Below the pieces are notes generated by a model, which was not told the origin of the DNA, searched no databases, and saw only the letters and a program-made list of their open reading frames with translations. Positions 3,281 through 47,140 of a stretch of DNA of 58,421 nucleotides are shown here, in pieces (positions within the stretch are counted from its first letter, which is position 1; every line of letters starts with the position of its first letter). The position numbers and the translations under genes were made by a program. This stretch comes from a virus. Where the stretch lies: positions 1-58,421 of the IMG/VR virus record IMGVR_UViG_3300032284_001308. One strand, written 5' to 3'.

Positions 3281-4987
3281 ATGCTCGGCGCAATCCTTGA
3301 CGCACTTGTTCCGGGACGCAGTTCGTATGACTGGATGGATGACCCTGCGAACATGTCGCCAGCGGGTCAGTTCTGGTATACGCCGCTCGGCATTCCTGAA
3401 ATGGCGGGGCAACCGACCGCTAACAGCCATTTGTTCGTTGGCGGATGCTTTGCTGCGACACGATTGCTTTGCGGTATCGGCGCGACGTCTCCCTTGAACC
3501 TTGTGCGAAAAACGGTTGTGAATGGTCGTATCGTCCGCGAAGTGCAGGACCAGCATCCAGTTCATCAGATTGTTAGCTTTCGACCGAACCTCGATCAAAC
3601 CGCCGTGCAATGGAAAGCACAGCAGATCGCATGGCAAGTCAATTGGGGTACGACGTTCTCGGAAATCCAGCGGGACATCTCAACTGATGTTCCAATGTAC
3701 TTAAATTCGATTCATCCTCGGCGAATGCGACCGTTTCGCGATATTGATAAGGATCTTTGGTGGCACGTCACAAATCCGGACGGTACACAATCGGACCTGA
3801 AGGATGGTGAGTTGGTGCGGGCACCGTACATCGTATCTGAGGACGGCGGAATTACTGGTCTTGGTGTTGCTTACCAGGCTCGCCGTTCAATCGGTCTGAA
3901 TCTGACGATGGAGCGGTCAGAACAACAGGCGTCGAAGGCTGGCGTGCCGCGAATCGTCGTCGAAACACCGAAAGTCATGTCAGAGGCATCTCGCGTCAAC
4001 TTCCGCCGTGAATGGAAGGAATTGTATGAGATGGGCGGCGAGGGCGTGGCATTGCTTACGGAAGGGTCGGTTGCCAAGCCGTTCGACTGGAAGATGACAG
4101 ACCAGCAGCACGTCCAGCGTCGAGAATTCCTGATCGAAGAGATTGCTCGATGGTACGACATTCCGTTGGCGATGTTGCGGCGGGCGATTAAGGAAATCTC
4201 GTCCAGTATCGAGCAGCAGGGTATCGACTTCAAGACTTACTCGCTGCGGTTTCTCGACATCTGGCTTCAGGAACTCGCGTACAAATTGCTGACGGAACAG
4301 GAGCGTCGGGACGGGTATTACTTCGCGTTCGACTTCTCGGATCTCCTGCGTGGCGATTTGGCGGCTCTGAGCGAGTTCTACCGTTCGATGAACGCAATCG
4401 GTGTCTATTCCGCCAACGATATCCTCGACAAGCTCGGGGAGAATCCGCACGACAAAGGGGATACCTACTTTGTGCAGGGTGCAATGCGTCCGATTGACGA
4501 GCCATACAATGCCACGGAACCGCAAACGCCACCAGTTGACCCCAATAATGGCAAGAAAGAACCTGGGTCGGAGTCGATCGAGGTTCCCATCACGATCTCC
4601 ACTGGACAGAATGAAGCGGTCGTGAAAGCCGTCAATATCATGCTGAAGGATACGCTTTCACGGTTCTCAACGAAGGAAATTAAGGCGGTTTCGACGGCGG
4701 CGACGAAGCCGAAAGAATTCACAGACTTCATCGAGACGTTTTACGAAAAGCACCAGTCTCAAATGCAGGAAGCATTGACGGCAGTTTGTACGGCTTCGCA
4801 GGCGATTGGTGGTGAACATTCCGAATGGTCGATCTCGACCGAATGGTGCTTGGCGTCGAAGGCCGACCTCATAAAAGTGTCGGAAACGGCGACGATGGCA
4901 ACGCTGTCTGACGAAGTGGCGAAACAACTCGAATCATGGCCGAATCGAATCGAATCTTACGTGAAGGAAGTCTCATGCACCCACTGA
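3281..4987 (+). CDS. portal protein (HK97 family)
   Basis: Dodecameric ring at one capsid vertex through which DNA enters and leaves. The fold is recognisable from the clip/stem/wing pattern: an N-terminal FVGGCFAATRLLCGIG segment, LVRAPYIVSEDG, then YDIPLAMLR and EQQGIDFKTYSLRFLDIWLQELAYKLL, which match HK97 portals. About 568 residues; the last 150 form a less typical extension with Thr/Glu-rich helices. ATG 3281 is preferred over TTG 3275 because AGAGG lies eight bases before it. The end overlaps the protease gene. Confidence 0.9.
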   Translation: MLGAILDALVPGRSSYDWMDDPANMSPAGQFWYTPLGIPEMAGQPTANSHLFVGGCFAATRLLCGIGATSPLNLVRKTVVNGRIVREVQDQHPVHQIVSFRPNLDQTAVQWKAQQIAWQVNWGTTFSEIQRDISTDVPMYLNSIHPRRMRPFRDIDKDLWWHVTNPDGTQSDLKDGELVRAPYIVSEDGGITGLGVAYQARRSIGLNLTMERSEQQASKAGVPRIVVETPKVMSEASRVNFRREWKELYEMGGEGVALLTEGSVAKPFDWKMTDQQHVQRREFLIEEIARWYDIPLAMLRRAIKEISSSIEQQGIDFKTYSLRFLDIWLQELAYKLLTEQERRDGYYFAFDFSDLLRGDLAALSEFYRSMNAIGVYSANDILDKLGENPHDKGDTYFVQGAMRPIDEPYNATEPQTPPVDPNNGKKEPGSESIEVPITISTGQNEAVVKAVNIMLKDTLSRFSTKEIKAVSTAATKPKEFTDFIETFYEKHQSQMQEALTAVCTASQAIGGEHSEWSISTEWCLASKADLIKVSETATMATLSDEVAKQLESWPNRIESYVKEVSCTH

Positions 4988-5922
4988 TTAAGTCGTTTCT
5001 CGCCGGTCCCTATATGCTGTCATCGACGTATGAGGCATTGCTTCAAAAAATGGATCAGCCTCGCAAACTTTTCGATGCTCCGTGTCCATTGACGGCGGCG
5101 ACGAAAGCAGCGACGGCGGCGCGACAGCAGCCGAAGTCAGCGAAGTATACGGCGGTGTTGCCGATGTTCGGGATGATCGACCAGCACGGCGGATGGATAG
5201 TGGACATGATGGGCGGGACGTCTCTCGCATCGTTAAATGAAGCGTTCGACCTTTGCATGAGCGAGGATCGAATCTCGAATGTTATGTTGCACGTCCACAG
5301 TCCAGGCGGAAGCGTCTATGGCGTCAAGGAAATGGCGGACAAGATCCATGCGGCGCGCGGTACAAAGCCCGTGTGCGCGGTCGCCAACTCAATGATGGCA
5401 TCGGCAGCGTATTACATTGGGTCGGCGTGTGACAGGGTTTATGCGACAGTTGGGGCGGACGTCGGCTCTGTGGGCGTGTATCAAATGCACTTCAATTACT
5501 CCGCTGCATTGAAAGACGACGGGATTGAATGCACCATCATTCGCGAGCCTGAATTCAAGGCTGAAGGCAACCCGTATGAGCCATTGACTGATGAAGCAAC
5601 ACAGGAAATGAAGTCGGACGTACATCGGATCTATCAGCAGTTCACGTCTGATGTCGCCAGATATCGCGGAATGGATGTCGGCGTGGTCCGCGACACGTTC
5701 GGGAAGGGTCGCACGATGGATGCGGCGTCGGCACAGAAATGCGGGATGATTAACCGCGTAGCGACGTATGGCGACGTGCTCGCTCGGATGCAGGCGGGAA
5801 CGATTCGTCCAAGTTCCGGTAACGCCGCTGATGATGGATGGGATTCGCCGATGTTGGAAGATTTCAGCGATCAGCGTCGGCGCAAACTCAATCTGATTGG
5901 CGTGCGGTTCGACGAACGGTAA
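4975..5922 (+). CDS. prohead maturation protease, S49/SppA-like
   Basis: Serine-lysine protease that trims the capsid protein delta domain during prohead maturation. Seen: a ClpP-crotonase fold with SPGGS near residues 109-113, the nucleophile Ser143 in NSMMASAAYY, and the general base Lys195 in EPEFKAEGNP, the S49 dyad. The length of 315 residues fits the family. ATG 4975 is preferred over the longer frame from 4936 because AAGGAAG lies four bases upstream. The gene overlaps the portal end by 13 bases. The capsid gene follows after an oppositely oriented insert. Confidence 0.85.
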   Translation: MHPLIKSFLAGPYMLSSTYEALLQKMDQPRKLFDAPCPLTAATKAATAARQQPKSAKYTAVLPMFGMIDQHGGWIVDMMGGTSLASLNEAFDLCMSEDRISNVMLHVHSPGGSVYGVKEMADKIHAARGTKPVCAVANSMMASAAYYIGSACDRVYATVGADVGSVGVYQMHFNYSAALKDDGIECTIIREPEFKAEGNPYEPLTDEATQEMKSDVHRIYQQFTSDVARYRGMDVGVVRDTFGKGRTMDAASAQKCGMINRVATYGDVLARMQAGTIRPSSGNAADDGWDSPMLEDFSDQRRRKLNLIGVRFDER

Positions 5923-12548: not shown

Positions 12549-13019
12549 ATGACAGCGGAAGCATTTACACAGGGCACGTTCTACGGTGGTCTCGCCGCTC
12601 TCACGACGGGAACTACCCTGATCGGCAATATCGTCGCGATTACTCCACCCGAGATGTCTCGGGAAGTGATCGAAACGACCGTTACCTCAACGGGTGCGAA
12701 CGGTATCAAGACGTTTATCGCTGGTGACCTCAAGGACATGGGCGAGATTAGCGTCACCGTCCAATACAACACTCAGGTTGATTATAACGCACTGATGGGC
12801 GCTCCGTCGTCGTCATTGACGGGATGCGACACTATCACCGTAACGTTCCCCAAGCGCGGGACGAGTTGTAACGGTTCCCTACCAACATCTGCGGCGACAT
12901 GGGCCGCTTCCGTCGTGACGACCAAGGTTTCACCGAAATGGGACTTCGAGTCTCAGATGGTTGTCACGCTCACGTTCAAGGTTGTCGGCATTCCTACATA
13001 CACGGCAGCGGTCGTATAA
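12549..13019 (+). CDS. major tail tube protein, paralogue 1
   Basis: 156 residues. Conserved with the next two genes: FTQGTFYGGLAALTTGTT, EMSREVIETT, GDLKDMGEISVTVQYNTQ.DYN, VTFPKR.TSCNG, KVSPKWDFESQMVVTLTFKV. The tube fold ends with the last beta strand FKVVGIPTYTAA. It forms hexameric rings of the non-contractile tube. First of three tandem copies with 15-20-base gaps, each with its own ribosome site. Confidence 0.8.
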   Translation: MTAEAFTQGTFYGGLAALTTGTTLIGNIVAITPPEMSREVIETTVTSTGANGIKTFIAGDLKDMGEISVTVQYNTQVDYNALMGAPSSSLTGCDTITVTFPKRGTSCNGSLPTSAATWAASVVTTKVSPKWDFESQMVVTLTFKVVGIPTYTAAVV

Positions 13020-13037
13020 TCCAGGAAAGGAACAAAA

Positions 13038-13508
13038 ATGGCCAATCAGTCATTTACTCAAGGTACGTTTTATGGTGGCTTGGCGGCACTGACGACCGGC
13101 ACAACCGTGATCGGAAACATCGTCGCAATCACGCCGCCGGAAATGAGCCGTGAAGCGATTGAAACGACATACACGACCACGAGCGCGAATGGGATTAAGA
13201 CTTACATCCCAGGCGACTTGAAGGATATGGGGGAAATGTCAGTGACGTGCCAATACAACACGCAACTCGACTACAACTCCCTGTTCGGTGCTCCTTCAAC
13301 GACAAATACCGGCTGTGACACAATGACGGTGACGTTTCCAAAACGGGCAACGACCTGTGGCGGTTCTGTCGCATCGTCGGCGGCAACATGGTCCGCCCCG
13401 GTGGTCATCACCAAACTAAGTCCCAAATGGGAATTCGATTCTCAAATGCTGATCACAATGACGTTCAAGGTGATTGGTGCTCCGACCTACACGGCGGCAG
13501 TGGCCTAA
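13038..13508 (+). CDS. major tail tube protein, paralogue 2
   Basis: 156 residues, the same length as paralogue 1 and closest to it: nearly identical FTQGTFYGGLAALTTGTT.IGNIVAITPPEMSRE and GDLKDMGE segments. Differences cluster in loops (TTYTTTSANGIKTYIPGD; GAPSTTNTGCDTM). DNA identity is clearly lower than protein identity, so the duplication is old, not an assembly artefact. AGGAAAGGAAC ribosome site. Confidence 0.8.
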   Translation: MANQSFTQGTFYGGLAALTTGTTVIGNIVAITPPEMSREAIETTYTTTSANGIKTYIPGDLKDMGEMSVTCQYNTQLDYNSLFGAPSTTNTGCDTMTVTFPKRATTCGGSVASSAATWSAPVVITKLSPKWEFDSQMLITMTFKVIGAPTYTAAVA

Positions 13509-13526
13509 TGCTGAAGGGCGGAAGAA

Positions 13527-13973
13527 ATGTCGCAGGCGTTCACGCAAGGGACATTCTATGGTGGCGCGGCAGCACTTTCCACGAATACGACGTTACTCGG
13601 AAACATCGTGGGCGTGGATACCGCTCCCGAGTTTTCTCGTGAAGTGATCGAGACGACGAACTCACGTAATACAAACCTTTGGGCGACGTTTGCAGCGGGC
13701 GATATCAAGGACGCGGGTTCGATCTCGATCACATGGCAATACAACACTCAGCTTGATTATGGAATCCTGTTCAACACTGGTAACGATGCGATTCAGATCA
13801 CGTTTCCAAAGCGTGCGACGAGTTGCGGCGGATCAGTAGCGACTAATGCGGCGACATGGACGGCTTATGTCGTGCTGGAAAAGTTGAGTCCGGCATGGAA
13901 GTTCGATCAGCAGATGGTGATTACAGGTACGTTCAAAATTAGTGGGCAACCCGCATTTGTTGCGGCGTCATAA
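13527..13973 (+). CDS. major tail tube protein, paralogue 3
   Basis: 148 residues; same core (FTQGTFYGG.AALSTNTTLLGNIVGV, REVIETTNSR, GDIKDAGSISITWQYNTQLDY, TFPKRATSCGG) but eight residues shorter: the loop after DYGILFNTGNDA is trimmed. Most divergent of the three. It could be a specialised ring, for example at the tip or neck. A 16-bp palindrome follows its stop. Confidence 0.78.
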   Translation: MSQAFTQGTFYGGAAALSTNTTLLGNIVGVDTAPEFSREVIETTNSRNTNLWATFAAGDIKDAGSISITWQYNTQLDYGILFNTGNDAIQITFPKRATSCGGSVATNAATWTAYVVLEKLSPAWKFDQQMVITGTFKISGQPAFVAAS

Positions 13974-29317: not shown

Positions 29318-30001
29318 ATGGTCGGCGAGTTGCCTCTGGTTGTTGAAGCAATTCCTCCGAGGGAAGCCGATCCGTGGATTTTGACAAGACATTACGCACA
29401 TCGAACATGCTCAATTTCGTATGCGTTTGGAGCTTACAGAGACAAGAAGCTGATTGGTGTTGTCACGTATGGAACGCCGTCAAGCTCGCCGCTAAGGAAG
29501 GGAGTTTGCGGTGAAAAATGGTGCGACAAGGTGTTAGAACTGAATCGCCTATGCTGTGAAAACACGCCAAACACGGCTAGCGCTTTGGTAGGAAGATCGC
29601 TGAGATTACTGCCGAAGCCTCGTATTGTCGTTAGTTATGCAGACACGCATCAAGGCCATATCGGATATGTGTATCAGGCAACGAATTTCGTCTATACGGG
29701 GTTGTCAGCGAAGCGAACCGACTGGAAGGTTAAAGGTAAAGAACATCTCCACGGTGCAACGATTGCCGACGAGTCACGAGGGCAGAAAAACCGCGCCGAA
29801 TGGATGCGAGAAAAGTACGGAGATGATTTTTATTTAGAAGATCGACCGCGAAAGCATCGATATGTATTCGTCTGCGGAAGCCGAAAAGACAGGCTAATGA
29901 TTTTAGCAGACCTGAAATATCGCGTGCTACCGTACCCGAAAGGCGAAAGTAGACGATCAAACGCTACAGGGTTAATTGAGACGCAAAACATCTTGTTTTA
30001 A
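29318..30001 (+). CDS. Mom-family DNA adenine modification protein
   Basis: 227 residues. The order ILTRHYAHRTCSISYAFGAY, GVVTYGTPSSSPLRKG, LELNRLCCEN, SALVGRSLRLLPKPRIVVSYADTHQGHIGYVYQATNFVYTG, EHLHGATIADE, REKYGDDFYLEDRPRKHRYVFV matches the family annotated as Mom adenine methylcarbamoylation proteins, which share a GNAT-like fold. Phage Mu Mom converts adenine to N6-methylcarbamoyl-adenine and blocks many restriction enzymes. Here it would protect virion DNA. ATG 29318 follows TTAGGTGAGATC. Confidence 0.8.
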   Translation: MVGELPLVVEAIPPREADPWILTRHYAHRTCSISYAFGAYRDKKLIGVVTYGTPSSSPLRKGVCGEKWCDKVLELNRLCCENTPNTASALVGRSLRLLPKPRIVVSYADTHQGHIGYVYQATNFVYTGLSAKRTDWKVKGKEHLHGATIADESRGQKNRAEWMREKYGDDFYLEDRPRKHRYVFVCGSRKDRLMILADLKYRVLPYPKGESRRSNATGLIETQNILF

Positions 30002-30095: not shown

Positions 30096-30215
30096 CGGAA
30101 GCGGTGCAACCGGCGTAGGTCGAATCGGCGAATGAGTCGCTGAGGTAATCCAGCCGGTTTTTGAAACACGTTTTATTGTCTGCGTGGAAGGTACGTTTAC
30201 AGCAAAGGAATGCAA

Positions 30216-30413
30216 ATGTTAGTGCTAGGCAGGGAAGAACAGCAGACGATCTTAATTGGCGACGACATCGTAATCACGGTGGTTCGCGTTAAAGGTCGAG
30301 AGGCTCGGATTGGCATCGAAGCACCGAGACGTATGCGTGTTCTTCGCGGAGAACTGGACCGCGACGATTCACGATCCAGCCGTCCCGCTAACGACAGAAC
30401 GGAGAGCGACTAA
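30216..30413 (+). CDS. csrA: CsrA-family RNA-binding regulator
   Basis: 65 residues. MLVLGREEQQTILIGDDIVI..., VKGREARIGIEAPRRMRVLRGEL is the CsrA fold (five strands, a GxxArxGI core and the conserved Arg in 'P..(M/V)RVLR.E'), a dimer that binds GGA in mRNA hairpins and changes translation or stability. ATG 30216 follows AAAGGAATGCA. The tail (DRDDSRSSRPANDRTESD) is longer and more polar than usual. Its target may be host or phage messages whose ribosome sites hold GGA. Confidence 0.9.
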   Translation: MLVLGREEQQTILIGDDIVITVVRVKGREARIGIEAPRRMRVLRGELDRDDSRSSRPANDRTESD

Positions 30414-41128: not shown

Positions 41129-41557
41129 ATGTCAGCGATCAAACGCCACGCAGCAGCGATTGCCGAGCAGCCAACACGGGACGGCTACGGGTTCGCAATC
41201 TCGACGACGATCCTGCTGACGGTTGCGGAGTATGTGATTCCAGCAATCATCAAGTGCTGGATCAACAATCACGCGACGGCGGCGAACGCTGACCATGCCA
41301 GCGATCTGAAGTCTATCGCATCGGCTCAATGGATCGCGTCTCAACAAGAATACTCGACGTGGATTCTCGACCAGATGGAACCGCAGACACGGCACGCATT
41401 GCGACGGGCTGGAACGCGACATCCGAACGAGGATGAGATCAAAGCGTATTCGTCAGCGATTCTCGACGATGCACGGCTCGGGAACGTCGAGGACATTCGC
41501 GCGGACATCGGCGAGGTTCTGACGGAAGTGGCGACGGTCGATTTGGGGAATTCGTGA
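41129..41557 (+). CDS. protein with one membrane span, unknown
   Basis: 142 residues. A short basic start, one hydrophobic span (GFAISTTILLTVAEYVIPAIIKCWI, about residues 21-45), then a helical polar part (QWIASQQEYSTWILDQMEPQTRHALRRAG). It marks the beginning of a run of membrane-linked genes continuing to 46582. GGAG ribosome site. No family. Confidence 0.55.
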   Translation: MSAIKRHAAAIAEQPTRDGYGFAISTTILLTVAEYVIPAIIKCWINNHATAANADHASDLKSIASAQWIASQQEYSTWILDQMEPQTRHALRRAGTRHPNEDEIKAYSSAILDDARLGNVEDIRADIGEVLTEVATVDLGNS

Positions 41558-41748: not shown

Positions 41749-41769
41749 TATCAAAAAGGACGTTTGAAA

Positions 41770-42003
41770 ATGGCAGTAAGCAGCGAACAGATTTTGGATT
41801 TCCTGGCGGAAGTGAATAAGGATCTTCCGGAGGTCGTCGATTTCGTGAATGAGTTGGAATCGAATACGGCATTGAATGCGAAGTTGATTGCCGCGTTTCC
41901 ATTGTTGAAAACAGCCGAAGACGCATTGCCGATCATCCAAAGTCGAATCGGTTTTTTTCAGCGGTTTGCGGCTGCGATCCTGAAATTCTGGCCAGCGTCT
42001 TGA
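41770..42003 (+). CDS. small helical protein, unknown
   Basis: 77 residues from ATG 41770 (AAAAAGGACG upstream). Helices EQILDFLAEVNKDLPEVVDFVNELE and AEDALPIIQSRIGFFQRFAAAILKFW, the last one hydrophobic and possibly membrane-touching. Its TGA overlaps a TTG of the next gene. It heads the protease cluster. Function unknown. Confidence 0.5.
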   Translation: MAVSSEQILDFLAEVNKDLPEVVDFVNELESNTALNAKLIAAFPLLKTAEDALPIIQSRIGFFQRFAAAILKFWPAS

Positions 42004-42014
42004 AAGAGATTGAG

Positions 42015-42824
42015 ATGTCAACCGGACCAGTAACGCCGAAAACTGAACCGATAATCCAGCCGTGGATGAACACGTTGCTTGGATTGGCGGTCGCGGCGTA
42101 CACGGCATACGTTCACGCATCGATTCAGGTTGTCGTTCCGACTCCCGACGTGAAGCCCGCGCCGGTTGTCGATCCGCACGGACTGACGATCACGGACAGG
42201 CACGGCAACACGATCACGGACACGGTTGACGCTGGGCATCAGTTCACAATCGACGGGTCTGCGGGAACGACACTGACGCCAATTCCGAGCGTTGCTGACG
42301 ATGCCGATATCACTGAGGTCAGCGACTCCAGGCTGATTTGCACGATGCGAAACGGTTGCAAACTTCAGATCGTCGTGACGGGTGCGGGTAAACCTTCGGT
42401 AATCGCGGTGACGTGCAATCATGCTCCGAATCCTCCACCAGTCGATCCAGTGAAGCCGGTTGTTGATCCGACTCCGAAACCATCAGGGGCCGTTCGTGTC
42501 GTCATATTCAAGGACGCGTTAGGCAAAGCTCTCACGAAAGATCAGGTCGCGGCGATTGGTTCCACAAAGATGAAAGCGTTACTTGACGAGCGATGTGCTA
42601 AGGATGCGGCGGGGCTTCCGGCGTGGCACGTTTGGGATAAGGACATCACGCCACCAGACGCGTGGGCAAAATTGGTCACGGCGACACGATCAGAGATCGC
42701 ATCGAAGAATCTCGACTTTCCCATTCTGGCAATCGAGGTCGGTAACACGCTGCATCTGTATGAGATCACGAACGAGACTGCGGTTCTGAATACACTCAAT
42801 TCTGTATTCGGGGAGGCGACGTGA
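42015..42824 (+). CDS. membrane-anchored protein with Pro-rich linker
   Basis: 269 residues from ATG 42015 (AGAG six bases upstream). One N-terminal membrane span (MNTLLGLAVAAYTAYVHASIQVVV, about 19-42), a beta domain (GLTITDRHGNTITDTVDAGHQFTIDGS), a cysteine pair (ICTMRNGCKL), a Pro/Val linker (PVDPVKPVVDPTPKPS) and a C-terminal alpha/beta domain (VRVVIFKDALGKAL...). Span first and domains after suggest N-in, C-out topology. It overlaps the papain-like gene, so the two are coupled. No known family. Confidence 0.6.
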   Translation: MSTGPVTPKTEPIIQPWMNTLLGLAVAAYTAYVHASIQVVVPTPDVKPAPVVDPHGLTITDRHGNTITDTVDAGHQFTIDGSAGTTLTPIPSVADDADITEVSDSRLICTMRNGCKLQIVVTGAGKPSVIAVTCNHAPNPPPVDPVKPVVDPTPKPSGAVRVVIFKDALGKALTKDQVAAIGSTKMKALLDERCAKDAAGLPAWHVWDKDITPPDAWAKLVTATRSEIASKNLDFPILAIEVGNTLHLYEITNETAVLNTLNSVFGEAT

Positions 42825-43588
42825 CCGAACTCGTTATCAACGACGATACGCATTGGCGAGAATACCACCCGCAGATACAGGGATTTGGTACAGGGTGGGA
42901 AAAAGCTGCGGACGTTGGCTATGGTGCGACAGCAGAGCCATTCCCGGACTCGTTGTTGTTGCCGTGGGATGAGATCAATCGACGGGCAGCGGAACGGGAA
43001 GCGACACAAACGCAACTGTCTCACAAGATTCGTGCGGCGGGGATGAAACCGCTCAATCAGCAAAACACGAATTTTTGCTTCGCGAACGCTCCGACAAATT
43101 GCGTCCGAATCTTGACGCTGTTGGCGAATCAACCGTTAGTCGAACTGTCTGCGGCGTCGGTTGGTTGCACGGTCACCGGATTCCGCAACGTCGGCGGATG
43201 GGCAAAAGACGCTCTCGATGTGATCCGAACGAAAGGCATCGTCCCGATTCAATACTGGCCATTGAACGCGATCAGCCAGCAATACAACACGACAGCGAAC
43301 TGGGCGAAAGCAGCGCCGTTCAAGGTCGATAAATGGATCGTGCTGGAGCAAGGAAACCTACAACAGCGGGCATCGTTGAACGTGCAAGATATTCCTGTCG
43401 CGGTCGCTTATGACTGGTGGGGTCACGAGGTTACTGGTTGCGATTACCTTCCCGATGGATCGTTCCGAGACTGGAACTCGTGGGGGCCAACATACGGCGA
43501 CAACGGTTTCTTCCTTGTGCAAGGTAATCGACGTGTATTCGCGGACGGAATCGCGGCGTTATCGGTCACAGGAGGGCTTTCGGTATGA
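42821..43588 (+). CDS. papain-like cysteine protease (C1 type)
   Basis: 255 residues from GTG 42821. Catalytic elements are in papain order: Gln80/81 and Cys86 in NQQNTNFCFANA, His202 in WWGHEVTGCDYL, Asn219 in RDWNSWGPTYGDNGFFLV, the last being the hallmark 'NSWG...G..G(Y/F)' of C1 peptidases. No signal peptide is seen, so it acts inside, is released by lysis or rides in the virion. Coupled on both sides (GTGA, ATGA). Possible roles: wall or surface proteolysis at lysis, or processing of phage or host proteins. Confidence 0.82.
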   Translation: MTELVINDDTHWREYHPQIQGFGTGWEKAADVGYGATAEPFPDSLLLPWDEINRRAAEREATQTQLSHKIRAAGMKPLNQQNTNFCFANAPTNCVRILTLLANQPLVELSAASVGCTVTGFRNVGGWAKDALDVIRTKGIVPIQYWPLNAISQQYNTTANWAKAAPFKVDKWIVLEQGNLQQRASLNVQDIPVAVAYDWWGHEVTGCDYLPDGSFRDWNSWGPTYGDNGFFLVQGNRRVFADGIAALSVTGGLSV

Positions 43589-43791
43589 GCAACCAAAAAC
43601 CATTCGGCGGCATCCTGTGCGGTGACGTGCTGTTCTATTACTGCCAGTTCAGCAATGTGAACGTGTCGTTCACGGCGAACTATCCAGCGGTGACGGTAGT
43701 GAATGGACTGTATACGCAAGTGATTAACGGTCGATCATCGCGCGGGGCTGACGTGATTGTTCCTGTCGGTAAGGTGCTCAGAAAAGAATGA
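43585..43791 (+). CDS. small beta protein, unknown
   Basis: 68 residues (ATGA overlap with the protease). KPFGGILCGDVLFYYCQFSNVNVSFTANYPAVTVVNGLYTQVINGRSSRGADVIVPVGKVL reads as beta strands with two cysteines. The size and coupling to the protease would suit a propeptide-like inhibitor or chaperone, but this is inferred. Confidence 0.5.
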   Translation: MSNQKPFGGILCGDVLFYYCQFSNVNVSFTANYPAVTVVNGLYTQVINGRSSRGADVIVPVGKVLRKE

Positions 43792-43848
43792 TCGAGGCGA
43801 CGAAAACGGCGGAACGGCTGATCGTGAAGTTTTGCAGGAGGCGGCAAC

Positions 43849-44817
43849 ATGCGGAAAACCATCGGAAATGTCGTGATAGGATTCACGATGTTTGCTTGCC
43901 AGTGCCTTGCTGCCGATCCGGTCGTGATCGTGCATCGCGGCTACGAAACGCAAGTCCACACGGCATCGAAACCGGACGTGATGCGGTACGCGGTCAAACT
44001 TCAGGCGGGGCATCGTGAGATGCTCGCAAGCGGCGTCAATGTCGCGGGCGGCATCGTGACGTGTGCCCATGTCGTTGATGGATTCAAAACATTCACGGTC
44101 GATTGTGACGGCGAGCGAGCGACGGCAACTGTCGCGCGGGTCGATAAAGAGCACGACCTCGCATTCATGACGGTCACATGGGCGAAACCGCATCCGGTCG
44201 CGGTGATTGCCACGAGCGGGCCAGCGGCGAAAGATACGATCCAATCTGCGGGACGGCATCGCGACGGGCTTCTGACGCTCGAATCGCACACGTATTTACG
44301 GACGGAAAACGGCGAGTATCTGTACTCGAATCCGCCACAAGAGGGACGCAGCGGAAGCGGAATCTTCAACGCGAACGGTCAGCTTGTCGGGATCGTGCTC
44401 GGGAAGATCGTTGACGAGGAGCCATTTATCGGGCGGTCGGCAACTGTTGAACAAATTCGCGGGATCGTTGGCGTTGGATCGTCCGGTTTAACCTGGGGAA
44501 CGGAATACAACGCGGCATTATTGGAGCGGTCGAAAGCGGAGAACAGGCCGATCCTGGTCATGCTCACGGCTAAATGGTGCATTCCCTGCAAGCAATTGAA
44601 GCAGACTCTCGAATCGATGGACCTGGACGGATATTTGCCGATCCTGATCGATACGGACGAGCAAAAGAACATAGCGGCGGCGTTTGGCGTTACGTCGATT
44701 CCGGTGATTCAGGTTGTCACACCAGACGCGAAGCTAGGCAAGCGGCTTGTCGGGAATCAATCGGCGGAAACATTGGAGAAAGAACTAACGGTCAGTGTCA
44801 CCCGCTCTAATAGGTAG
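43849..44817 (+). CDS. exported trypsin-like protease fused to thioredoxin
   Basis: 322 residues. A signal peptide (MRKTIGNVVIGFTMFACQCLAAD, cut near AA-D) leads to the periplasm or outside. The trypsin-like/HtrA-type domain has His74 (VTCAHVVDG), Asp103 (EHDLAFMTV) and Ser168 (EGRSGSGIF). From about residue 228 comes a thioredoxin fold with active site WCIPCK (Cys254, Cys257) and cis-Pro285 (TSIPVIQ). GGAGG precedes ATG 43849. A disulfide reductase joined to a protease would open and cut disulfide-bonded proteins. No PDZ domain. I do not know this fusion from other phages. Confidence 0.85.
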   Translation: MRKTIGNVVIGFTMFACQCLAADPVVIVHRGYETQVHTASKPDVMRYAVKLQAGHREMLASGVNVAGGIVTCAHVVDGFKTFTVDCDGERATATVARVDKEHDLAFMTVTWAKPHPVAVIATSGPAAKDTIQSAGRHRDGLLTLESHTYLRTENGEYLYSNPPQEGRSGSGIFNANGQLVGIVLGKIVDEEPFIGRSATVEQIRGIVGVGSSGLTWGTEYNAALLERSKAENRPILVMLTAKWCIPCKQLKQTLESMDLDGYLPILIDTDEQKNIAAAFGVTSIPVIQVVTPDAKLGKRLVGNQSAETLEKELTVSVTRSNR

Positions 44818-44893: not shown

Positions 44894-45301
44894 ATGTTGG
44901 ATTCACTATTAGCGTTCATGGGATTAAGAATGAGACCATCACAGGGCGACATCGACCGCGACCAGGAATCGCCGTTGGTGGTCGGGTTGCGTGCGACGAT
45001 GACGACGCAGAAGGAATCCATCGAGTTCTGGCAGAAGGAAGCGAAACAACTCGACTTCGATCTCAAGGACAAGGAAACAGAAAACGCCAAACTCCGAAAC
45101 GCACTCACAAACGCGGACAAGTGCGAGCGTGTGAGGCTGGAGCAATTGCGGGAAATACAAGCGGCGAACGATGCCTTAGTGTCAGCACTCGACGACATTG
45201 CCGAACGTGCGAAATCCGTCAAGAGCAGTATCGACGGAATAGCGGTTGAGCCTTATGATACGCGGGGAATTATCGACACTAAGAGTTATGGAAGCGACTG
45301 A
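44894..45301 (+). CDS. coiled-coil protein, unknown
   Basis: 135 residues with a strong GGGGGAGTGAG site. A hydrophobic start (MLDSLLAFMGLRM) is followed by a long coiled coil (LRATMTTQKESIEFWQKEAKQLDFDLKDKETENAKLRNALTNADKCERVRLEQLREIQAANDAL). The start could be membrane-associated. It sits in the membrane cluster; spanin-like or structural roles are possible. Confidence 0.55.
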   Translation: MLDSLLAFMGLRMRPSQGDIDRDQESPLVVGLRATMTTQKESIEFWQKEAKQLDFDLKDKETENAKLRNALTNADKCERVRLEQLREIQAANDALVSALDDIAERAKSVKSSIDGIAVEPYDTRGIIDTKSYGSD

Positions 45302-45335
45302 TCGAACCTCTTTTACACACAGTTAGGGGGTGATC

Positions 45336-45638
45336 GTGAATCTGTGGACGTGGTGGCGAACTCTTGCTGCCGACATTTGGACTCTACGACAAAGGACGAA
45401 TCAGATGAGCGAAGTTGTTACAGCACTCAAAGCCGAATTCGAAGCCTACAAAGCCGACGTTGATAAGCGAGATAACGACCGACTCGCAAAAATCACTGAC
45501 CTTGGTGATACAATCGCTTCCCTCGAAAGCAAGATCGCGAACCTGCCATTGCCGGAAGTCGAAGTCGCCGAAGTTCAGGCGGTCCTCGAAGAAGTCAAAA
45601 CGGCACACGCGGCACTGAATCCAGCCGAACCGGCGTAA
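45336..45638 (+). CDS. coiled-coil protein with aromatic start
   Basis: 100 residues from GTG 45336 (AGGGGG five bases upstream; ATG 45405 is a shorter option). MNLWTWWRTLAADIWTLRQR is an amphipathic, membrane-seeking start, followed by a coiled coil (VVTALKAEFEAYKADVDKRDNDRLAKITDLGDTIASLESKIANL). Resembles small phage proteins encoded near lysis genes. The palindrome copy 4 lies 14 bases after it. Confidence 0.5.
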   Translation: MNLWTWWRTLAADIWTLRQRTNQMSEVVTALKAEFEAYKADVDKRDNDRLAKITDLGDTIASLESKIANLPLPEVEVAEVQAVLEEVKTAHAALNPAEPA

Positions 45639-45652
45639 TCCTTCCGCTGTTT

Positions 45653-45670
45653 TGTATAAAATTTTAGACA
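45653..45670. repeat. 18-bp palindrome, copy 4 (one mismatch)
   Basis: TGTATAAAATTTTAGACA; the left arm has A in place of C. It lies between the stop at 45638 and the start at 45687, again downstream of a gene end. Confidence 0.65.
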
Positions 45671-45686
45671 TTTGCAGGGCCGCAAC

Positions 45687-46025
45687 ATGGCTGAAGAACA
45701 ACATGCCGTTATCGTCGATTCATTTTCACCGTGGGAACGTCGGTTAGAGAAGCACGGCTGGCCGACATTGCTGCTGCTTATTGTCGGGCTTGTCGCGTGG
45801 CGGTTTTCGGACTGGTTTCAGCCGAAAGTAGACGAAGCGATCACAAAGCACTTCACGTTCATGGAAGCCGTCAAGAATACGCAGGAAAAACAGGCAGAAA
45901 ACGGGTCTGTTCTCGCAACTCAACAAACCAAGATCGGCGATATTCTGGAGAGACAGGAACGCCGAACAGAAGAAATGGCCGACAGGATCAAGGACGTTCA
46001 CAAAACACTCGTTAAGCCGAACTAA
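45687..46025 (+). CDS. one-span membrane protein with coiled coil
   Basis: 112 residues from ATG 45687. After a polar N-terminus comes one span (WPTLLLLIVGLVAWRFSDWF, about residues 25-44) and then a helical part with a coiled coil (VKNTQEKQAENGSVLATQQTKIGDILERQERRTEEMADRIKD). This shape occurs in holins and spanin-like proteins. Stop overlaps the next start (TAATG). Confidence 0.55.
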   Translation: MAEEQHAVIVDSFSPWERRLEKHGWPTLLLLIVGLVAWRFSDWFQPKVDEAITKHFTFMEAVKNTQEKQAENGSVLATQQTKIGDILERQERRTEEMADRIKDVHKTLVKPN

Positions 46026-46279
46026 TGCCAATACGTGCGGGCCGTCCTTTACGACTTGAGTTGTACGGTCTCGCGGTTGCAGGGACGGTAGTATGCTTTT
46101 GGTTGAGCGATAGGATTCGAGTTCAGTCAGAGATTCAGAAAAAGATCGTCAGCGAATTAGAGCGTCCGAACATTGTCCAAAACAACAATCAACAAGTGAC
46201 AATTGAATCGGACGCGATGAAACTTGCACGAGAGATTTTGATAAAGGAAGACAATGGCAACATGCCAGGAACTAAATGA
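46025..46279 (+). CDS. one-span membrane protein, unknown
   Basis: 84 residues. A short basic start (MPIRAGRPLRLELYG), a span (LAVAGTVVCFWLSDRI), then a polar helix with NNNQQ. ATGA-style overlap with the gene before, and its 3' end overlaps the next by 26 bases. Candidate holin, antiholin or spanin part. Confidence 0.5.
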   Translation: MPIRAGRPLRLELYGLAVAGTVVCFWLSDRIRVQSEIQKKIVSELERPNIVQNNNQQVTIESDAMKLAREILIKEDNGNMPGTK

Positions 46280-46493
46280 TCAGATGACGGCTGCACAAAA
46301 CGCAATCATCGCTCAGCAGGGCGTGGTGAGAGCAAAGCACGCGTTCACATTGGCGCAAATGGCGTTGTATGGGGCAGCGATGAATGACGAAAACGCGGCA
46401 CTGACGACGCTGAACCAATTGAATCAGGATCTTCAAAACATCCAGATGCAAATGTGGATGCAAAACTGTCCGTTTCAATCGGGGCAGGCGTGA
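46254..46493 (+). CDS. small helical protein, unknown
   Basis: 79 residues; Gln/Ala/Met-rich helices (ELNDQMTAAQNAIIAQQGVV, AFTLAQMALYGAAMNDENAAL, QDLQNIQMQMWMQNCPF). It overlaps genes on both sides and ends in a GTGA junction. Possibly cytoplasmic partner of the membrane peptides. Confidence 0.5.
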   Translation: MATCQELNDQMTAAQNAIIAQQGVVRAKHAFTLAQMALYGAAMNDENAALTTLNQLNQDLQNIQMQMWMQNCPFQSGQA

Positions 46494-46582
46494 AGTCGCT
46501 TCTCGGCAAAATGCTGGACCTGCTGGTGATGGTCGCGATAGTGGCTGCGGCGATGACGATCCTTTTTGGAATGTGTACGTGA
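46490..46582 (+). CDS. 30-residue membrane peptide
   Basis: GTG 46490 overlaps the previous TGA; MKSLLGKMLDLLVMVAIVAA continues to a short hydrophobic end (MTILFGMCT). An amphipathic start and one membrane span fit a pinholin-like or small regulatory peptide. Confidence 0.45.
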   Translation: MKSLLGKMLDLLVMVAIVAAAMTILFGMCT

Positions 46583-46624: not shown

Positions 46625-47140
46625 ATGGAGTCACTGTTGCAAGTGATTCCGCGTCTCCGTCACGTCAAGTCAACGCACGGCGCGGTGTTGTTCTGGTGGG
46701 GTCGATCATACTTGCTGAAATCGGGATTGCACGTTTACTGGCCGGTTTGCTCGGAGATTGTTGAAGCGTCAATGGTGCGTCGGACTCACAATCTAACGTA
46801 CCAGGATCTTGTCACGAGCGACGACGTTCAGGCGACGATAGCGGTGACGGTGGTATATCAAATCGTGGACGTTCACGCGGCGATTACAAAAACGGACGAT
46901 ATCGCGGACACGATCAGCGATCTTGCAGGGCGAGCGATCATTGAGATTTGCGGAGACTCGACAGCGAAAGAGGTAAGGCGACGGCGGAAGGATGACGGGC
47001 GCAAAATTGACTTACTGTTGCGTCGAATGATGAGTCACGATCTTGCAGAGTTTGGCGTCAAGGTTCGGCGGGCGTTTATTTGCGAAGTGTCAACACCACG
47101 GATGATACGACTCATAAGCAATCACGGGAGTTTTAATTGA
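46625..47140 (+). CDS. SPFH/Band 7-like protein
   Basis: 171 residues. The pattern GLHVYWPVCSEIVEASMVRRTHNLTYQDLVTSDDVQATIAVTVVYQIVDVHAAITKTDDIADTISDLAGRAI is typical of stomatin/prohibitin SPFH domains (early 'YWP', 'T.D.V...' strand, then a helix). It lacks the long C-terminal oligomerisation coil. SPFH proteins build membrane cages and guard proteases. In a phage it might remodel host membranes at lysis or block a host protease. Start ATG 46625; the protein may start further upstream at a non-standard codon. Confidence 0.65.
   Translation: MESLLQVIPRLRHVKSTHGAVLFWWGRSYLLKSGLHVYWPVCSEIVEASMVRRTHNLTYQDLVTSDDVQATIAVTVVYQIVDVHAAITKTDDIADTISDLAGRAIIEICGDSTAKEVRRRRKDDGRKIDLLLRRMMSHDLAEFGVKVRRAFICEVSTPRMIRLISNHGSFN

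Follow-up and report, generated by a model that had tools for sequence, protein, structure and literature searches.

How does a phage in which no endolysin can be recognised open its host? The question is raised by a group of genes around positions 42,015 to 44,817 of the IMG/VR record IMGVR_UViG_3300032284_001308, a 58,421-bp virus contig without end repeats, the whole of which (hereafter the window) was analysed. A preliminary description of this locus had proposed that a membrane anchor, a papain-like protease and an exported trypsin-like protease joined to a thioredoxin form a protein-cutting lysis system, possibly directed at a planctomycete cell wall. The window encodes the terminase large subunit (TerL), an HK97-type portal, an S49 prohead protease, a major capsid protein, a tyrosine integrase, Mom, ERF and YqaJ, and is therefore, judging by its gene set, a temperate tailed phage.

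The three proteins of the cassette

The cassette in the window is built around three genes:

42000..42824 (internal ATG at 42015), + strand: membrane-anchored protein with a probable thioredoxin fold (AlphaFold model, structure matches, homologs)
42821..43588, + strand: C1 (papain-type) cysteine protease without signal peptide (Pfam PF00112, catalytic residues, model)
43849..44817, + strand: predicted exported trypsin-like serine protease fused to a thioredoxin (Pfam Trypsin_2 and Thioredoxin)

The product of the second gene matched Pfam Peptidase_C1 (PF00112) with 27 bits against a cut-off of 20.7, and carries Gln80, Cys86, His202 and Asn219 in the order found in papain. These catalytic residues are invariant in all 36 aligned viral homologs; the search pattern by which the homologs were collected required the motifs WWGH and NSWG, so that the invariance of His, Asn and both motifs is partly by construction, but Gln80, Cys86, Gly125 and Gly229 are invariant in the same alignment (n = 36) though not selected for. 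The AlphaFold model, with a mean predicted local distance difference test score (pLDDT) of 91, was nearest in structure to xylellain (Z 21.7, root-mean-square deviation 2.4, 210 aligned) and pro-papain (Z 20.7), and the profile of the 36-member family matched cathepsin K at 2.9e-16, while the protein is only 15-20% identical to solved C1A members. No signal peptide was found in the window protein or its aligned relatives. About 50 N-terminal residues, a possible propeptide, stand ahead of the C1 domain, and part of them overlays the proenzymes in the model (range from residue 8-9). PHROGs and NCBIfam gave no match, and Pfam gave Peptidase_C1 only and no known peptidoglycan-hydrolase family. 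We concluded from sequence and model that the protein, whose active site is complete, is a true protease of the C1A type, which bears out its earlier assignment.

The first gene encodes the membrane anchor that had been described, with one transmembrane helix (residues 21-40 in the model). The helix is followed by a beta region of low confidence, a Pro-rich linker (about 143-162) and a C-terminal domain (about 164-274), whose probable thioredoxin fold is added here. In the AlphaFold model this domain has the order b-a-b-a-b-b-a with pLDDT above 90; the VIA-align list was topped by thioredoxins (best Z 8.0) and Foldseek gave an E value of 0.011. The sole invariant column across 37 anchor homologs is Pro241, which lies at the place of the thioredoxin cis-proline. 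The protein has no CxxC motif, its cysteines being only at 114, 120, 139 and 199, and a profile search of the PDB with the anchor alignment yielded low-complexity matches only. We regard the product as a non-catalytic thioredoxin-fold arm, a call that is good but not beyond doubt because the Z score is modest.

The third product, likewise as first described, begins with a signal-like segment, followed by a Trypsin_2 domain (4.6e-16) with the triad His74, Asp103 and Ser168 (G-R-S-G-S) and a Thioredoxin domain (1.1e-10, 41.9 bits against a cut-off of 23.5) with WCIPC at 243-247; it falls under the NCBIfam cut-offs for the MarP and thioredoxin equivalogs. The sequence AGGAGG stands ahead of its ATG. 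The three genes had been called coupled. This holds for the first two, which overlap by 4 bp (GTGA); the third starts 261 bp past the C1 stop, with an open reading frame (ORF) of 68 aa in the gap.

Spread of the cassette among viruses

Scans with the three single sequences found no relative in viral contigs, nor did the C1 protein find any in genomes, and among GenBank phages and plasmids the window C1 had no relative, while the trypsin-thioredoxin fusion matched nothing but plain thioredoxins or trypsins. Two other leads were rejected: the genome scan with the fusion gave one Flavobacteriaceae thioredoxin, which is unrelated, and the DNA pattern WxVWDKD for the anchor gave, by frame, terminases and methylases. 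The DNA pattern WNSWG led to locus L038. Its C1 aligns over the full length with that of the window (29%, 1e-27), and its gene ahead of C1 matches the C-terminal domain of the anchor protein. By using the pattern WWGH-x(12-22)-NSWG, derived via this locus, 78 IMG/VR stretches were obtained, and in 73 of them a C1 relative was present in frame (blastp E as low as 2e-57); these 73 viral contigs fall into 35 clusters at 70% identity. As only sequences with both WWGH and NSWG could be retrieved by the pattern, the sample surely falls short of the whole family. A second viral C1 group (QG..GSC, GGHE, WNSWG), distinct from the WWGH family, was seen in L029 (473-1252), L035 (8500-9189) and L039 (2874-3797).

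Of the 60 C1 loci for which more than 450 bp of sequence ahead of C1 are available, 59 have an anchor-domain homolog on the same strand at most about 620 bp upstream; L218, the exception, has it downstream. Only 2 of the 64 anchor-domain matches stand in other places. Many of the gene pairs overlap by 4 bp, and in most C1 loci the product of the partner gene is anchored in the membrane or exported. One subgroup (L167, L212, L217 and L233) has, between the anchored thioredoxin-fold gene and C1, a gene with the motif GYSWDGASIPRWAWS...HDWLCEHSET, which may be DUF1353-like.

The third component varies. A profile of the exported thioredoxins matched 28 ORFs in about 770 kb (loci plus window), all within 250 bp of C1 and on the same strand; as the loci are related these matches are not independent, and counted by cluster they come to 10 of 35 plus the window, with the following two groups not included. 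Proteins with CPPC occupy the place of the thioredoxin in four further loci and proteins with CSAC in two, both under the profile cut. A fusion as in the window, 25% identical to it, stands 12 bp behind C1 in L194 and comprises a signal, Trypsin_2 (9.8e-10) and thioredoxin (5e-10). In L234 an exported trypsin follows C1 by 18 bp, in L165 an anchored trypsin follows by 784 bp, and in L174 a transmembrane-anchored CAPC protein is directly ahead of C1. In the virus with the second trypsin-thioredoxin fusion (G008; L239-L241) there is, besides, a protein that has an ADP-ribosyltransferase-exoenzyme domain (1.1e-8).

The arrangement is far beyond chance, because the partner stands upstream in all but one of the loci counted and every thioredoxin-profile match stands beside C1. 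Judged by sequence comparison, many unrelated viruses link the C1 protease to an anchored partner of thioredoxin fold, and often also to an exported active thioredoxin or a trypsin. Taken as a whole, the cassette had no match in PHROGs, GenBank phages or plasmids, and a search of the open-access literature turned up no such system, though a description elsewhere remains possible. Its parts are members of known families.

Neighbouring genes and the host

Further features of the window that bear on the cassette are as follows:

4936-5922: S49 prohead protease, between the portal and capsid genes
41129..41557, + strand: 142-aa protein with one hydrophobic segment, ISTTILLTVAEYVIPAIIKCWI, read from sequence
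41764..42003, + strand: 79-aa protein without predicted membrane span or family match, overlapping the anchor gene by 4 bp
43585..43791, + strand: 68-aa ORF between the C1 and trypsin-thioredoxin genes, overlapping the C1 stop by 4 bp
44894..46582, + strand: five or six short ORFs of coiled-coil and one-span types, as judged from sequence
46625..47140, + strand: SPFH/Band_7 (HflK-like) domain protein (Pfam Band_7, 5.1e-14)

The 142-aa protein is a weak candidate for a holin or pore protein. It had no match in Pfam, PHROGs or NCBIfam and no phmmer homolog in the C1 loci; a similar segment, judged by eye only, precedes the module in L181 and L179. The 79-aa protein possibly belongs to the module, by its position only, and the 68-aa ORF matched no family in Pfam or PHROGs. 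The one-span peptides and the SPFH-like protein reported up to 47 kb were both recovered, the former as short ORFs at 45.6 to 46.6 kb that contain hydrophobic segments. The ORFs of 44894..46582 gave no significant family match in Pfam or PHROGs and are possible envelope accessory proteins. The SPFH protein matched NCBIfam HflK at 4e-7, under the family cut-off, and phmmer gave no homolog of it in the C1 loci.

The preliminary description had looked to a host in the Planctomycetota, with a cystine-linked protein wall. Nothing was found that places the window there: the searches gave no tRNA gene, no recognised att site and no isolate relative, and the matches of its terminase are taxonomically scattered (Moraxella, Halomonas, Piscirickettsia and others), with a planctomycete element standing no nearer to it than proteobacterial ones do. 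No planctomycete marker family was found in 40 records, in a search whose control was also without a match anywhere. Older literature describes planctomycete walls as proteinaceous and resistant to sodium dodecyl sulfate (reviewed in PMC3422733), whereas planctomycetes have peptidoglycan sacculi that are sensitive to lysozyme (PMC4432640). This part of the proposal is not established.

A suggestive lead toward the host is the gene group at 21-2622 of pPLIM01 (NC_014149, L238) of Planctopirus limnophila, which by its annotation is a phage-plasmid (TerL, portal, ClpP-type protease, capsid, tape measure, integrase, ParB). A Pro-rich protein with a transmembrane helix, a transmembrane protein with NQGTGDC, WAHQ and WNSH, and an exported CLEC protein stand there directly before HNH and terminase genes; the likeness to the C1 cassette lies in motifs and gene order only, with no significant similarity. 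A papain-like nature of the pPLIM01 protein was unsupported by hhalign, blastp, Pfam and a PDB sequence search, and between pPLIM01 and the window we found only distant terminase and connector similarity.

Three other observations concern the window elsewhere. A Mom-family protein is encoded at 29318-30001 (7.8e-40), and the C1 virus G005 (L219) also has one; DNA modification may therefore be common to the window phage and other C1 phages. The short ORF at 30165-30407 is distantly similar to a pPLIM01 ORF annotated as carbon storage regulator, and a batch of small window ORFs that includes it gave one Pfam CsrA match (2e-18). At 12549-13973 there are three tandem paralogous genes of about 150 aa each (12549, 13038 and 13527) with the motif TQGTFYGG.AALTTGTT..., apparently repeated tail proteins.

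The proposed lysis role and its rivals

The terminase large-subunit gene starts 0.1-2.1 kb downstream of C1 in about 29 loci, and a site beside the terminase is usual for lysis genes. In L179 a Pfam holin (PF05105, 8e-25), the sole one in its contig, lies about 1.3 kb upstream of C1. By Pfam no peptidoglycan hydrolase was found among the about 85 ORFs of the window, in agreement with the preliminary description, nor in full scans of the C1 viruses G008 (47 kb) and G005 (50 kb). Among the Pfam matches listed for 217 C1-neighbour proteins there was no lysozyme, amidase or other murein hydrolase, the families listed including thioredoxins, trypsins, terminase, portal, capsid proteins and the L179 holin. 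A targeted lysin search of the window and 29 C1 records was without match for Amidase_2, Phage_lysozyme, M15_4, NLPC_P60, SLT, M15_3, GH19 (for which no control genome matched) and Hydrolase_2; the control for GH108 gave no match, so that this search is uninformative.

Because of the terminase adjacency, the one adjacent holin and the lack of a recognisable endolysin, we favour, with moderate confidence, the reading that this is a late phage cassette which would lyse the host by envelope proteolysis with the help of thioredoxin-fold proteins, in place of a conventional endolysin. The lysis role first proposed is thus retained on indirect grounds, apart from the planctomycete wall. The C1 enzyme would accumulate in the cytoplasm and be let out by a holin-like membrane protein, for which 41129 and 45672-46582 are the candidates in the window, and the anchored thioredoxin-fold domain may tether C1, or else the substrate of C1, to the membrane or wall. 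The exported thioredoxin would keep Cys86 reduced in the oxidising periplasm, open target disulfides, or both; the reduction of wall disulfides, which alone had been proposed before, is one of at least two readings. The proteases would then cut envelope protein or wall peptides (a protein wall or murein peptide being the presumed target) until the cell bursts.

Several points weigh against lysis by this route. No holin family was matched in the window, where about 15 kb separate the module from the contig end and about 40 kb from the terminase; in L038 and L160 it stands among head (capsid) genes. All C1 contigs come from uncultured viruses. C1A proteases normally cut L-peptide bonds, which makes it hard to see how one alone would breach murein. 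The sensitivity of the lysin panel is low, with an above-cut-off lysin in 2 of 10 comparison phage contigs plus one weak GH19 match; because of this, the lack of a recognisable endolysin can be stated firmly, at the sensitivity of Pfam, for three genomes, while for the others the evidence is suggestive, and the absence may reflect the limits of Pfam.

Among the rivals, the C1 protein might itself be a new peptidoglycan-peptide endolysin, lysis being conventional (holin plus murein hydrolase) and the thioredoxins only keeping the catalytic cysteine reduced. The papain superfamily includes endolysins (CHAP, NlpC/P60, C71), the window, G005 and G008 yielded no other murein hydrolase, and a thiol protease in an oxidising periplasm would profit from a dedicated exported thioredoxin. 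In sequence and fold, however, C1 is nearest to protein-cutting C1A enzymes (cathepsins, xylellain), and the second, trypsin-type exported protease (window, L194, L234, L165) points to protein substrates; we consider this explanation rather improbable. It is distinctly unlikely, in our opinion, that the cassette alters the host surface in lysogeny or early infection, for superinfection exclusion or for receptor removal by trimming or refolding outer proteins. Such a role would suit a temperate phage with a tyrosine integrase and two cassette proteins that are membrane-bound or exported, but it agrees poorly with a C1 that lacks a signal peptide, with a place just before the terminase that suggests late expression, and with the holin that accompanies the cassette in L179.

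We give still less weight to a virion or head-assembly enzyme that would mature structural proteins or be carried in the particle for entry. The preliminary description had named virion or intracellular processing as a finding that would overturn it, and the capsid genes adjoining the module in L038 and L160 speak for such a role; the window, however, already has the separate S49 prohead protease, about 35 kb from C1, and a partner that is membrane-anchored or exported in most loci is ill-suited to head assembly. Least probable of all is a counter-defence or host-takeover module that acts on host membrane proteins and is unrelated to lysis. Thiol proteases and thioredoxin-fold proteins have many uses of this type, and no direct support for one was found here; the linkage to the terminase and, once, to a holin, and the membrane-anchored or exported partners, argue against it.

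The nearest known systems agree with the cassette in some features and differ in others. With peptidase C1A (papain, cathepsins, xylellain) it shares the fold, the order and spacing of Gln, Cys, His and Asn and the NSWG motif, but its C1 is phage-encoded, lacks a signal peptide and has an obligate anchored thioredoxin-fold neighbour, as well as the WWGH demanded by the search pattern. Like holin-endolysin cassettes it has a soluble enzyme without signal in a compact gene group beside the terminase, with a Pfam holin in one locus; unlike them it has no member of a murein-hydrolase family, its enzyme is a C1A protease and redox proteins are included. The PeiP/PeiW (C71), CHAP and NlpC/P60 endolysins are papain-like cysteine peptidases with which phages cut, or are believed to cut, wall peptides; compared by Pfam only, they belong to other families with other motifs, and have no paired anchored thioredoxin-fold gene. 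The 43849 product resembles exported thioredoxins (periplasmic Trx, DsbE-like) and, weakly, proteases of the HtrA/MarP type, but fuses Trypsin_2 and thioredoxin in one exported phage protein beside C1.

To our knowledge, all well-studied double-strand DNA phages that lyse bacteria cut peptidoglycan. If our preferred reading of lysis by envelope proteolysis is true, the cassette would be a new lysis strategy; it would allow lysis genes to be recognised across a large set of phages not yet cultured, and would point to hosts that owe the strength of their envelope to protein. A bolder form of it, which we think possible but doubtful, is that uncultured tailed phages of a widespread group lyse without any murein hydrolase, a papain-type protease docked by the membrane-anchored, non-catalytic thioredoxin-fold arm and an exported thioredoxin, with or without a trypsin-type protease, dismantling a disulfide-stabilised protein layer of the envelope. 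The cassette would also make testable the old question of whether some bacteria have a load-bearing, disulfide-linked wall protein. Even if lysis should prove wrong, the tightly linked two-gene unit of a protease and a thioredoxin-fold protein, present in 35 clusters, would stand as an undescribed phage system.

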